From: Bacteroidota bacterium
GTDB lineage: Bacteria > Bacteroidota > Bacteroidia > Bacteroidales > UBA12077
Direction of reading: 5' to 3'
Assembly (NCBI GenBank): GCA_020444275.1
Contig: JAHLLG010000005.1
Location: 152,004-216,003, forward strand
Length of the DNA stretch: 64,000 nt
Each line of letters opens with the position of its first letter. The first letter of the stretch is position 1. Positions 443-43,734 of the stretch are shown here, one piece after another. Below the pieces are notes generated by a model. That model was given only the letters and a program-made list of their open reading frames with translations, did no database searches and had not been told where the DNA came from. Made by a program: the position numbers and the translations under genes.

Positions 443-1255
443 ATGAAAAAACAAATATCCCTTTTAATAATTGTTGTGCTTTTTATAAACCTACAAGCTA
501 TGGCTGGTTGGGTTATAACACAACAAAGTTACGATTCTGATGAAGGTGTTGAAACTGCTTTGGTTGAAACGATCTATTTACAGGATAATATAATGAAAGT
601 GGTTCAACCCGAAATGGTAACCATGTTCAATTTAAATAATGAAACAATTACCATTATGAGTCCGGTTAAAAAGGTTTACTGGACAGGCAAAGTAGCAGAT
701 TATAAGAAAGAGATCAAAGATGCTATGCGCTCTGCAATGGAAGAGCAACTTAAAAATGCACCAGAAGAACAGAAGGAGATGATTCGTAAAATGTATAAGG
801 GCATGATGGAAAGTATTGACAATCCATCGAAATTCGCTGGCGAGGAACCCGAAGAGTATGAACTGGAAATAGAACAGAAAGGAGATAAAGATCGTGTTGC
901 CGGAAAATTAGCGCATAAATATGCTATAAAAGTAAACGGTTCGGTAAAAGAAGAAGCCTGGTTGTCGGAATCGGATAAACCACACGAAGAATTTGATATT
1001 GGTAAGTTTTATGATCTTTTTGGTGATTTTACCAGTCAGGCAAATTCAAGTGCTTTCTATCAAACCGATGAAAAATATATAGAATTTTCAAAAAAAGGAT
1101 TTCCTTTAAAATCAATAAGTTATTTTGGAGGTTACGAATCCATAAGCGAAGTTACCAACCTTGAAAAAGAAAACCTTGATCCTACAGTATTTAAAGCCCC
1201 AGCTGATTACCAGAAAGTTAGCCTGTTGGAAATAGGATTAGATGAACAAGAATAA
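443..1255 (+). CDS. Secreted hypothetical protein (DUF4412-like)
   Basis: This is a 270-residue protein with a clear N-terminal signal peptide (residues 1-21, hydrophobic core LLIIVVLFI, AMA before the likely cleavage site). It is therefore predicted to be exported to the periplasm or outer membrane. The body begins with short beta-like segments (an ETIYLQDNIMKV stretch near residue 42) and then a Lys/Glu/Met-rich helical stretch at about 87-122. No catalytic motif is recognisable. The overall plan, in which a protein reports on bound metal or lipid through a beta-sandwich, resembles DUF4412-type proteins of Bacteroidota, but that assignment is by general look only. It is a single-gene unit: a terminator lies upstream at 68-100 and another follows at 1287-1333. 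Confidence 0.7.
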   Translation: MKKQISLLIIVVLFINLQAMAGWVITQQSYDSDEGVETALVETIYLQDNIMKVVQPEMVTMFNLNNETITIMSPVKKVYWTGKVADYKKEIKDAMRSAMEEQLKNAPEEQKEMIRKMYKGMMESIDNPSKFAGEEPEEYELEIEQKGDKDRVAGKLAHKYAIKVNGSVKEEAWLSESDKPHEEFDIGKFYDLFGDFTSQANSSAFYQTDEKYIEFSKKGFPLKSISYFGGYESISEVTNLEKENLDPTVFKAPADYQKVSLLEIGLDEQE

Positions 1256-1286
1256 ATGATTCCACAATAAAATATTTTCTATAGTC

Positions 1287-1333
1287 ATTCCCGCGTAACC
1301 TGCCTGTCGGCAGACAGGGCGGGAATCTTTTTT
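1287..1333 (+). terminator. Terminator built from a CATTCCCG-type repeat
   Basis: ATTCCCGC (1287-1294) pairs with GCGGGAAT (1319-1326), followed by CTTTTTTT. Inside lies a second near-palindrome, CCTGCCTGTCGGCAGACAGG (1299-1318), extending the stem with one mismatch. It follows the secreted-protein gene. The ATTCC...GGAAT arms resemble the repeat at 12911-12980. Confidence 0.75.
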
Positions 1334-1371
1334 GTATTATTTTAGATAAAAACGTACATCAAAAAATAGAA

Positions 1372-1404
1372 TTTGGATTTCTAAAAAATTTGTATTTATC
1401 TTTG
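1372..1404 (+). promoter_or_regulatory. Putative promoter of the SAM-riboswitch/metY transcript
   Basis: TTTG (1372-1375) lies 21 nt before TATCTTTG (1397-1404), matching the Bacteroidota -33 TTTG and -7 TAnnTTTG consensus. Transcription would start near 1411, about 30 nt before the riboswitch. Confidence 0.55.
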
Positions 1405-1442
1405 TTGCATCATTTCAAACATCCTTCACAAAGGGCGTTTGA

Positions 1443-1543
1443 TTTATAAAGAAGAGGGGAGAGATTAGGCTCTGTGAACCTCTGGCAACCAGTTCAAAAG
1501 AACGTTGGTGCCAATACCTAACCCGATTAAGGGAAATTATAAA
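1443..1543 (+). promoter_or_regulatory. SAM-I (S-box) riboswitch
   Basis: The sequence carries the S-box core in the right order: a purine-rich AGAGGGGAGAGA stretch, GGCTCTGTGAACCTCTGGCAACC for the P2/P3 region (starting at 1469), then GGTGCCAATACC (1507-1518) and GATTAAGGGA. The ends TTTATAA (1443-1449) and TTATAAA (1537-1543) pair as P1. SAM binding to this RNA class represses methionine and sulfur genes in many bacteria, and the next full-length gene is metY. How this copy acts is not settled by the sequence: a 36-codon ORF begins 17 nt after P1 and a hairpin follows that ORF. Confidence 0.9.
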
Positions 1544-1559
1544 CTAAACGCAAAAAATC

Positions 1560-1670
1560 ATGAAAAGAGAATTTTTTTGTCAACGTTGTTCCGTATTGGG
1601 TTTTGTTATTGCTAACCATTTTTGGTTTAACAATTTTACAATGCCATTATTGCCTATGTGCATGCGCTAG
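1560..1670 (+). CDS. Putative Met/Cys-ended leader peptide (36 aa)
   Basis: A short ORF with an ATG 17 nt after the riboswitch P1 helix. It begins MKREFFCQRC, has a hydrophobic and aromatic middle (FVIANHFWF), and ends MPLLPMCMR before TAG. Three of the last nine residues are Met and one is Cys, which is what a translation-coupled sensor of methionine or cysteine supply would look like. A hairpin (1671-1697) starts directly after the stop. The peptide may act only by being translated. No Shine-Dalgarno is visible, as is normal in this phylum. No conserved domain is recognised. Function is an inference from position and composition, and a chance ORF cannot be excluded. Confidence 0.5.
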   Translation: MKREFFCQRCSVLGFVIANHFWFNNFTMPLLPMCMR

Positions 1671-1697
1671 TCGGAGAGTGGATTAATGTCTTTCCGA
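1671..1697 (+). promoter_or_regulatory. Hairpin directly after the leader ORF stop codon
   Basis: TCGGAGAG (1671-1678) pairs with CTTTCCGA (1690-1697) over 8 bp including one G-U, with an 11-nt loop. A short AGTTTTC follows, so it could be a weak terminator or attenuator element. It sits between the leader ORF and the repeat that precedes metY. Confidence 0.5.
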
Positions 1698-1710
1698 ATA
1701 GTTTTCGACA

Positions 1711-1799
1711 CATTGTGTATTCTTAGTGTAAACTTCGTGTTCTTAGTGCCTTAGTGGTAAAAATGAATAGCCACAAAGTCTCAAAGACACAAAGAAAGC
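1711..1799. repeat. CTTAGTG/CACAAAG palindromic repeat, copy before metY
   Basis: The left arm (1733-1759) reads CTTCGTGTTCTTAGTG then CCTTAGTGGTA. The right arm (1769-1793) reads AGCCACAAAG, TCTCAAAG, ACACAAAG. The arms are imperfect reverse complements and would fold into a long stem in RNA. The element lies wholly in the metY leader, ending about 50 nt before the metY start. Confidence 0.65.
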
Positions 1800-1831
1800 T
1801 CTAAGATTTAGAGAATAGATTACATAGGTGA

Positions 1832-3172
<1,341 letters not shown>

Positions 3173-3188
3173 TTTTAAAATAATTAAG

Positions 3189-3306
3189 AATGCTTTGTGA
3201 AACTTTGTGCTTCTTAGTGTTCTTAGTGGTTAATAAAAATGCTAAGTTTTTGCCACATCCAGGTAATTATCGGGACTCAAAGGAATTCACAAAGATCACG
3301 AAATAA
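3189..3306. repeat. CTTAGTG/CACAAAG repeat in the metY-metX gap
   Basis: CTTTGTGAAACTTTGTG, CTTCTTAGTG, TTCTTAGTGG (3191-3230) are followed by CTCAAAGGAATTCACAAAGA and TCACGAAA (3277-3304) in the opposite sense. It is another member of the repeat found through the met block. The rest of the 3173-3601 gap is AT-rich, and no gene, promoter consensus or terminator could be supported in it. Confidence 0.55.
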
Positions 3307-3601
3307 TAAATTAAAAAAAAAGTAAAAAAATGAATAGAAAAATTTAACTATAAGCAGGATGCCGAGTCTAAAATAGGGTTTGTACGAAGTTAATTATCCT
3401 CTAAAGAATGATCTAAAATCATTCATTAGAAAACGAAGTGTAAGCTAATGAATAAGATTTAAGACATCCCGACTTAGAAAATCTTTAATTTTAAGAATTA
3501 AAATTTTAGATTTTATTCGTCGATTCGGCAAGAATTAAATGATTGACGAATTTGGATTAAAAATTCTATTATATTTCGGCATCCGCTTAATAAAAACTAT
3601 T

Positions 3602-4633
3602 ATGACAGAACATCAATTTCAACACAAAGGAGAATTTAAGCTTGAAAACGGGCAATCATTGCACAATATTCAAATTGCGTATCATACTGCTGGCGAATTA
3701 AATGCAGCAAAAGATAATGTGATTTGGGTTTGTCATGCTATGACTGCTAATTCTGATGTTGCTGACTGGTGGCCAAATATGGTTGGAGATGGATTGTTAT
3801 TTGATACAAGTAAATATTTTATTATTTGTGCAAACTATTTGGGTTCATGTTATGGTACTGCTGGACCCTTATCAATAAATCCAAAAACCAAGCAGAAATA
3901 TTATCACGATTTTCCATTAATTACCATTAGGGATATGGTGAATGCACATGAACTTTTGCGTCAGCAGTTGGGTATTCCTAAAATATTTATGGTAACTGGG
4001 GGATCTATTGGCAGCTTTCAGGCATTGGAATATAGTATTATGTATCCTTCTTTGATTGATAATTTGGTTTTTATTGTAAGCGGAGCTTTTGCTTCTCCAT
4101 GGAATATTGCTTTTAACGAATCGCAGCGGTTGGCAATTCACGCTGATTCTAGTTTTAAAAACAAGCACGATTCGGCTGGGTTACAAGGATTAAAAGCTGC
4201 ACGATCAATTGCTTTGCTAAGTTATCGTAATGCAGCAACCTATAATAAAACACAGCACGACCCGGAAGAAAAACTGGGCGATTTTAAAGCTATTTCATAT
4301 CAGCAATATCAGGGAGACAAGCTAATAAAAAGATTTAATGCCTATTCATATAATTCAATAACAAGATCTTTCGATTCGCATAATGTAGGTCGAGATCGTG
4401 GTGGAATTGAAAAAGCATTAGCAAAAATTCAAGCAAAATCTTTATTGATTGCAATATCTTCAGATATGTTGTTTTTCCCTGATGAAATCAAGGAAGTTCA
4501 CAAACACATTCCAAATTCACAATACATAGAAATTGATTCGCTTTTTGGTCATGATGGTTTTTTAATTGAAACAGAACAGCTAACAGCTGTCATCAGAAAT
4601 TTTTTAAAAAACCAGAACGCTGATAAAGTATAA
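3602..4633 (+). CDS. metX: Homoserine O-acetyltransferase (MetX)
   Basis: The protein is an alpha/beta-hydrolase-fold acyltransferase that makes O-acetylhomoserine from homoserine and acetyl-CoA, the first committed methionine step. From the ATG at 3602 it is 343 residues. The nucleophile is Ser135 in GGSIG. The acid Asp lies in SSDMLFF and the general-base His in GHDGF near the C terminus, completing the triad. NYLGSCYGTAGP (78-89) is the conserved oxyanion/active-site loop region. An in-frame ATG at 3539 would add 21 unconserved residues and is rejected. It sits between metY and hom, consistent with a homoserine-to-homocysteine pathway. The sequence alone does not fully exclude succinyl-CoA as donor. 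Confidence 0.93.
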   Translation: MTEHQFQHKGEFKLENGQSLHNIQIAYHTAGELNAAKDNVIWVCHAMTANSDVADWWPNMVGDGLLFDTSKYFIICANYLGSCYGTAGPLSINPKTKQKYYHDFPLITIRDMVNAHELLRQQLGIPKIFMVTGGSIGSFQALEYSIMYPSLIDNLVFIVSGAFASPWNIAFNESQRLAIHADSSFKNKHDSAGLQGLKAARSIALLSYRNAATYNKTQHDPEEKLGDFKAISYQQYQGDKLIKRFNAYSYNSITRSFDSHNVGRDRGGIEKALAKIQAKSLLIAISSDMLFFPDEIKEVHKHIPNSQYIEIDSLFGHDGFLIETEQLTAVIRNFLKNQNADKV

Positions 4634-4709: not shown

Positions 4710-5897
4710 ATGAATCAAAAAATAAATATTGGACTTTTCGGCTACGGGGTTGTAGGCGAAAGTCTTCATCATGTGCTTAAACACAGCAAAACAGTAGATG
4801 CTGGTGTTAGCAAAATCTGTGTAAAACAGAAAGATAAAAAGAGATCTTTAGCTCCAAACGAATTTACTTTTAACAAGGAGGATATTATCAACGATCGGGA
4901 TATTAACCTGGTTGTAGAACTTATAGATGATGCTGATGAAGCATACGATATTGTAAAGCGTTGTTTGCAAAATAAAAAGAGTGTTGTATCGGGAAATAAA
5001 AAGATGCTCGCTCATCATCTGGAAGAATTAATTCAATTGCAGAAAGAAACCAATACATCCTTACTTTATGATGCTTCAGCTTGTGGAAGTATTCCAATTA
5101 TCAGAAATATTGAAGAATATTATGATAATGATTTGTTAAAATCAGTAACTGGAATTTTAAATGGATCTTCAAATTATATCCTGTCTAAAATTTTTAATGA
5201 AGGATTGGATTATCAAACAGCCTTAAAGCAGGCGCAAGATTTAGGATTTGCTGAGAGTAACCCAAGCTTAGACGTTGATGGATTTGACTCTTTATATAAA
5301 TTAATCATTATTGCCACGCATGCACTGGGAACATTTGTTCCACCCGATAAAGTTTTAAACTATGGCATATCGAATTTGCAAGAAGCAGATATTCAGTTTG
5401 CAAAGGAAAAAAACTATAAGATCAAACTAGTCGCTCAGTTAATAAAATTAGATGATGAAAGCTTTACCATGTTTGTAATTCCACGCCTGGTTCGACCCGG
5501 TAAGTATATTTATAATGTTGAAGATGAGTATAACGGAGTTGTTATTCAGGGTGAATATTACGATAAGCAATTTATGTTTGGTAAAGGAGCTGGTGGATAT
5601 CCCACGGGATCAGCAGTTTTGTCGGATATTACTGCCCGATCGCACAATTATAAATACGAATACAAAAAACAGAAGTACTTTAAAAGATTAGAATATAGAA
5701 CCGATCACGAAATCGAGATTTATTTACGATACAAGGATATTGTTGATTTCAGTTATTTCGAATTTGATAGTATTTCTGAGAAACATTCTGGATTAGAAAA
5801 CAATTATGTGGTTGGTAAGATCAAATTATCGAACCTGCTAAAACTAAGAACTGTGTTGCCGAGGTTAGATGTCTTTTTAGCATATATTCGTAATTAA
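4710..5897 (+). CDS. hom: Homoserine dehydrogenase
   Basis: This enzyme reduces aspartate semialdehyde to homoserine, supplying the substrate for the MetX reaction. It is 395 residues. GYGVVG (11-16) is the Rossmann dinucleotide loop. SGNKKM, GILNGSSNYIL and DVDGFDSLYKL are the conserved substrate and catalytic stretches, and GAGGYPTGSAVLSDI is the signature near residue 292. It is a stand-alone enzyme with no aspartokinase part. After that signature only about 85 residues remain; they do not show an obvious ACT domain, although EIEIYLRYKD could be a diverged one. Feedback inhibition by threonine is therefore uncertain. The position amid met genes suggests a methionine-dedicated isozyme. Confidence 0.92.
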   Translation: MNQKINIGLFGYGVVGESLHHVLKHSKTVDAGVSKICVKQKDKKRSLAPNEFTFNKEDIINDRDINLVVELIDDADEAYDIVKRCLQNKKSVVSGNKKMLAHHLEELIQLQKETNTSLLYDASACGSIPIIRNIEEYYDNDLLKSVTGILNGSSNYILSKIFNEGLDYQTALKQAQDLGFAESNPSLDVDGFDSLYKLIIIATHALGTFVPPDKVLNYGISNLQEADIQFAKEKNYKIKLVAQLIKLDDESFTMFVIPRLVRPGKYIYNVEDEYNGVVIQGEYYDKQFMFGKGAGGYPTGSAVLSDITARSHNYKYEYKKQKYFKRLEYRTDHEIEIYLRYKDIVDFSYFEFDSISEKHSGLENNYVVGKIKLSNLLKLRTVLPRLDVFLAYIRN

Positions 5898-43635: not shown

Positions 43636-43734
43636 AGATACCAAGAAATAATTTTTAGTGGAAATCAGAACCCACTTAAAAAAACGAGGCGGAACTGAAA
43701 AGCCAAACGAGTAAGATTAAAAAATGGTAAGAGT

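Follow-up and report, generated by a model that had tools for sequence, protein, structure and literature searches.

In many Bacteroidales-like bacteria the SAM riboswitch sits directly in front of a short open reading frame whose last codons are rich in methionine, sometimes in cysteine, which suggests a two-sensor control of methionine synthesis. Of 139 S-box loci from 48 families of the order, 104 carry an ATG 9-18 nt after the aptamer. In 96 of these it opens a short ORF and in 8 it opens metH. Among leaders of at least 14 codons, 56 of 87 contain Met-x-Met (MxM) in the last 12 codons, compared with 14 of 2318 control ORFs. Support for such control comes from comparative sequence evidence only; the function of the leader is inferred.

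An S-box, a leader ORF and a hairpin upstream of metY

We analyzed a stretch of 64,000 nucleotides, here called the window, in which these elements precede a methionine gene cluster (Table 1). A preliminary description had placed an S-box, a 36-codon ORF and an 8-bp hairpin upstream of metY, and this is confirmed. Only its spacing of 17 nt between the riboswitch and the ORF depends on where P1 is cut, as the start codon lies 14 nt after the end of the Rfam match and 8 nt after an extended P1 helix in the predicted fold. The hairpin begins at the base following the stop codon. On its own a 36-codon ORF means little, as the first 6000 bases contain 53 ORFs of at least 25 codons. The window hairpin is only modestly better than shuffled sequences (z -1.42, 17 of 200 as good; p 0.03 in a narrower test). 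What lifts the arrangement above chance is its conservation in relatives. The peptide has no Pfam or NCBIfam match at E<=1.

Table 1 Features of the window discussed in the text (positions are those of the window).
Feature	Positions	Strand	Support
Inverted repeat of the GTCATTCCCGC type, between the upstream DUF4412 gene and the promoter	1283-1330		
Promoter-like Bacteroidota-type pattern: TTTG (1372-1375) and TATCTTTG (1397-1404)	1372-1404	+	Pattern match
P1 helix with extension 1435-1441 / 1545-1551	1435-1551	+	Predicted fold
SAM-I (S-box) riboswitch aptamer	1441-1545	+	RF00162, 70.7 bits (gathering score 44.4), E 1.7e-14, full model 1-108; only S-box found in this genome
Leader ORF, MKREFFCQRCSVLGFVIANHFWFNNFTMPLLPMCMR, 36 codons, ends MPLLPMCMR	1560-1670 (ATG 1560, TAG 1668-1670)	+	Frame and Met codons conserved
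Putative regulatory codons: Met, Met, Cys, Met	1641-1643, 1656-1658, 1659-1661, 1662-1664	+	Each the same codon in 11 of 11 genus leaders
Leader segment and metY translation start region, complementary to each other; possible sequestration in this genome, not general	1635-1661 and 1820-1846	+	-19.2 kcal/mol
Hairpin TCGGAGAG / CTTTCCGA, 11-nt loop	1671-1697 (1671-1678 with 1690-1697)	+	Helices near the stop with other sequences in other families
Similar ttagtgttcttagtg-like patches on both sides of metY, perhaps a dispersed repeat	1733-1797 and 3190-3240		By eye
metY, O-acetylhomoserine aminocarboxypropyltransferase	1847-3172	+	TIGR01326, 661.8 bits, E 3.4e-199, above cut-off
metX, homoserine O-acetyltransferase (true start may be internal)	3539-4633	+	TIGR01392, 353.2 bits, below its curated cut-off of 500; NF001209, 335.1 bits, above its cut-off of 331
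Homoserine dehydrogenase	4710-5897	+	NF004976, E 2.8e-92, above cut-off
DUF805 RNA	43653-43721	+	RF03081, 70.8 bits, above its gathering score

Conservation of the leader in the order and in a second order

In order to determine how widespread the arrangement is, we searched for S-boxes in 98 relatives (32 with an S-box), 393 genomes of the order (114) and 395 genomes of the phylum (314). We read 139 loci of the order, from 122 genomes, and 65 loci outside it; two sub-threshold matches in the order were left out. We call the order Bacteroidales because 7 of the 12 record titles found with the leader motif say so, while the others say Bacteroidota (2), Bacteroidetes, Marinilabiliales and Chlorobiota. 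In five loci the Rfam end was reset to the P1 3' strand because the match stopped short, and where several ATGs lay at +9..+18 the one nearest +14 was taken.

The first ATGs peak at 13-16 nt after the aptamer. The per-base ATG frequency at +9..+18 is 0.077 compared with 0.024 further downstream, and outside the order only 10 of 65 loci have an ATG at +9..+18. The short ORFs occur in 33 families. The 8 long ORFs come from 5 families and 8 of 8 carry the LVLDGAMG-type start of metH; one was checked by profile search (methionine synthase, E 1.2e-241 on a fragment). The remaining 35 loci have no ATG at that spot. The predicted gap between P1 and the AUG is similar in both groups, with a median of 7 nt (range 0-23) in 83 of 84 leaders and 4-12 nt in 7 of 8 direct metH cases. 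This suggests that the S-box may act on initiation of whichever ORF comes first. Upstream, TAnnTTTG was found within 120 nt in 74 of 91 leader or direct loci and TTG-N18..22-TAnnTTTG in 52 of 91, although no shuffle control was made for these patterns.

The last 12 codons of the 96 leaders contain 202 Met codons of 1119 in frame, but 5 and 8 of 1023 in the other two frames. MxM occurs 71, 0 and 0 times. With one leader per family (33) the Met counts are 62 of 386 compared with 1 and 3 of 353. The Cys count in frame +1 (206) exceeds that in frame (81), which we attribute to ATG followed by C or T reading TGC or TGT when shifted, so that Cys enrichment as such is not shown by this count. Of the 87 leaders of at least 14 codons, 80 have a Met in the last 12 and 67 have two or more, compared with 612 and 100 of 2318 other ATG ORFs of 14-50 codons in the same loci. 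By family, MxM is found in 23 of 32 and any Met in 30 of 32. Typical ends are MPLMPMCMR, SMDMRCMR, AATMPRMR, SPMRMR, HCMRMRSC and NMCMCWRY. Three leaders, from one family, end in CCCCCCC or CCCFCCC. Leaders that do not fit are included in these counts, and 7 of 87 have no Met in the last 12 codons.

Selection on the leader is confined to the named frame. Over the last 30 codons of 11 genus leaders, pN/pS is 0.39 in frame and 0.88 and 1.25 out of frame, although these pairwise counts are not corrected for shared ancestry. The three terminal Met codons and the Cys codon are invariant, while neighboring Pro, Leu, Thr and Arg codons also change synonymously.

For the later tests we used 84 of the 96 leaders (at least 14 codons and a Met or Cys in the last 14). 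Short motifs labeled the downstream genes of 69 of these as metY (40), aspartokinase (18), metH (8) and metX (3). Of the 15 unlabeled genes, profile searches identified five, namely two HcyBio homocysteine biosynthesis genes (PF01837), one metY, one aspartokinase and one cystathionine-synthase-like gene. By their start sequences eight more are HcyBio-like (three), metY-like (one), aspartokinase-like (one) and metH-like (three). Two were left unassigned, one of which follows a poly-Cys leader and has no Pfam or NCBIfam match.

Riboswitch and leader can occur separately. A degenerate DNA pattern for the MPxxPMxM end matched 13 of 98 relatives, once each, with no match to the reversed control. 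Twelve matches lie just after S-boxes. In the thirteenth, genome G012, two searches found no S-box, yet an ORF ending MPLMPMCML (locus L224, about 1447-1570) and a weak hairpin at its stop (z -1.34, 17 of 200 shuffles as good) are kept, with 140 nt from the stop codon to the ATG of metH. The leader can therefore be kept without the riboswitch, in one genome so far. Conversely, genome G015 has metY but no S-box match, and no Met-ended short ORF was seen before it. Of twelve genus and family members without an S-box match that were searched with MetY, seven had a match, and only that of G015 was near full length (80% identity).

One locus outside the order had a similar leader, so we searched 40 relatives of that genome. 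In its genus (24 genomes, one of which had only a sub-threshold partial S-box match and was left out) 23 of 23 top-scoring S-box loci read have a leader that starts at +9..+11 and ends in Met/Cys codons. Met codons number 54 of 276 in frame compared with 3 and 1 out of frame, and MxM occurs 25, 0 and 0 times. Ten of the 23 were checked for the next gene and ten looked like metY. Seven loci of other families in this search have no ATG at 5-29 nt opening an ORF of 6 codons or more. Of 20 further S-boxes from 13 genomes of the genus, 18 have no such ORF, one has a leader ending RMYMRVC and one a 9-codon ORF without terminal Met. By their start sequences 13 of the 20 precede metE and 5 metF, and one of each was checked by profile. 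So the leader is not an automatic by-product of an S-box.

The hairpin at the stop codon and the read-out

A helix whose 5' arm begins within 24 nt of the start of the last Met/Cys codon has p<=0.05 against shuffles in 32 of 84 leaders (4.2 expected at that level) and in 17 of 31 families. In 20 of 84 the arm begins within one base of the end of the stop codon, and the sequences differ between families. A more general folding test yielded a family mean z of -1.2 there, -0.6 further downstream and -0.2 inside the leader. The hairpin does not reach p<=0.05 in the other 14 families. Within the genus the pairing is kept in 89.8% of cells, but covariation is not significant (233 of 500 shuffles as good). 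In the second order, using a 120-nt segment and a longer maximum loop (80 nt), only 5 of 23 loci pass, although several of the rest share a GTCGTC/GACGAC-like stem at the stop codon. In the genus the sequence is alike up to the end of the hairpin in 8 of 11 leaders (L021, L027 and L224 differ in the 3' arm) and unlike after it, although the next gene may be metY, aspartokinase or metX. This argues for a read-out finished by that point.

The hairpin mostly lacks a U tract. Neither its 3' arm nor its 5' arm has a second partner downstream (1 of 79 loci each at p<=0.04), while the Met-codon region gave 9 of 79 and the leader start, as control, 3 of 79. The classical terminator/antiterminator pair is thus missing. 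No intrinsic terminator was found at window 1000-2200. Terminator-like sites after leaders are only in mild excess (20 of 84, 6.8 expected; between S-box and leader stop 9 of 84, 3.8 expected). In contrast, S-boxes of the order without an ATG at that spot have such sites in 21 of 35 loci (2.3 expected), and loci outside the order in 22 of 65 (4.9 expected).

A possible two-input attenuator and its alternatives

Taken together, these data are best explained by a two-input attenuator for methionine synthesis, a reading to which we assign a probability of roughly two in three in the absence of expression, ribosome or RNA data. When SAM is bound, P1 would close a few nucleotides before the leader AUG and block initiation of the leader, as it would for metH where metH itself starts at that spot. 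When SAM is low the leader would be translated, and its last Met (or Cys) codons would make the ribosome stall when Met-tRNA (or Cys-tRNA) is scarce. The stalled ribosome would cover part of the 5' arm of the hairpin. Assuming usual footprint sizes, a ribosome with the last Met codon in its A site reaches about 12 nt further, whereas one waiting at the preceding Met codon would reach less far. Without a stalled ribosome the hairpin would form and expression of the downstream genes would be cut, most likely by premature, perhaps Rho-assisted, transcription termination. This last step is inference, and the position of the hairpin is supported in only about half of the families. The genes would be fully on only when both SAM and charged Met-tRNA are low. 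The preliminary description had proposed that stacking a SAM riboswitch and a peptide that could sense Met-tRNA or Cys-tRNA charging would give dual control of metY, and the conserved frame and terminal residues support this by sequence comparison only; the leaders before aspartokinase, metH, metX and HcyBio genes, the poly-Cys versions and the leader without an S-box go beyond it. Slightly more likely than not, the arrangement is a natural RNA logic gate, widespread in the order and present in another order of its class, in which SAM and charged Met-/Cys-tRNA are read in series, the read-out is a hairpin without a classical terminator, and the two sensors can be lost or gained separately.

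Translational attenuation, in which the Met-codon stretch pairs with the start region of the structural gene until a stalled ribosome frees it as in ermC-type leaders, is unlikely as a general read-out. The pairing in the window is striking (rank 0.015 against start regions of other families). Of 79 loci with a usable downstream gene, 14 have p<=0.05 against shuffles and 11 rank at or below 0.05 by swapping (p 0.002). One family pairs better with its own gene starts than with those of other families (-13.6 against -9.1, p 0.0009; within-family swap -13.2), and 3 of 11 families tested have p<0.05. However, the mean swap rank is 0.48, the middle of the leader as control also gives 8 of 79 (p 0.044), and 8 of 11 families with at least 3 loci show nothing. 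Masking the Met region freed the gene start best in 11 of 76 loci with 9.9 expected, and the mean gain in accessibility was 0.02.

An arrest peptide that stalls the ribosome in response to Met, SAM or another sulfur compound, independent of tRNA charging, is somewhat less likely still. P-M-x-M occurs in leaders of five families, more than Met content alone needs, and the two Pro residues are kept in 11 of 11 genus leaders. Nevertheless, other families end in SMDMRCMR, TMPRMR, SMRMR or poly-Cys with no common peptide, as expected for codon sensing. A plain relay, in which the S-box controls a leader whose translation merely protects the mRNA (polarity) and the Met/Cys codons sense nothing, is improbable. 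A riboswitch-controlled uORF needed for downstream expression is described for ppe2 of M. tuberculosis (PMC11260477), but a relay does not explain the terminal Met enrichment, the poly-Cys ends or the retention of the leader in G012. That a nucleotide motif containing ATGNNNATGCG is conserved and the frame incidental is largely refuted, since, although ATGCGC is common at leader ends and sometimes part of the hairpin, MxM is found only in frame, poly-Cys versions exist and synonymous changes surround invariant ATG codons.

The window carries a full SAM-I aptamer above the gathering score before a Met-pathway gene, but the first AUG after it opens a Met/Cys leader instead of the gene or a terminator. 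Like attenuators of the trp, his, leu and thr type of Proteobacteria, as these are generally understood, the leader is a short ORF with codons for the product of the pathway near its stop and, in about half of the families, apparently a hairpin there. It differs in lacking the second and third helix and mostly the U tract, in using Met/Cys and in following a riboswitch. Cysteine-run leader peptides of Actinobacteria also have Cys runs near the stop codon and no conserved terminator, and a Rho-dependent read-out was proposed for them (PMC1262725); they lie upstream of cys or cbs genes and carry Cys rather than mainly Met codons, with no riboswitch in the sections consulted. In ppe2 a riboswitch acts on translation of a short upstream ORF, as is inferred here, but this is a B12 switch coupled by overlapping stop-start codons, and we saw no mention of regulatory codons for the product of the pathway (PMC11260477). 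The SAM-II metA leader of Sinorhizobium meliloti combines a SAM switch with a start codon and a terminator before the start codon that is used; the riboswitch class is different, AUG1 was found not to be used in the natural context, and no Met/Cys leader peptide is mentioned in the sections consulted (PMC9373788). Short ORFs in long 5' UTRs reminiscent of leader peptides are mentioned for B. thetaiotaomicron (PMC7366714). We also consulted PMC2965389 and PMC3766115, and found no description of an S-box followed by a Met/Cys leader peptide in a partial search of open-licence papers.

Riboswitches and leader peptides are usually treated as alternative solutions to the same problem. Here they are stacked in one leader RNA for the same pathway, in 23 of the 48 sampled S-box-bearing families of the order by the strict Met-x-Met end (30 by any Met in the last 12 codons) and in one genus of another order. 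G012, with the leader but no S-box found, and genomes whose other S-boxes have no leader provide natural controls. If the proposed mechanism holds, it would show how bacteria that probably do mostly without Shine-Dalgarno initiation use S-boxes, would make Met starvation and SAM sufficiency separable inputs, and would offer a natural AND gate.
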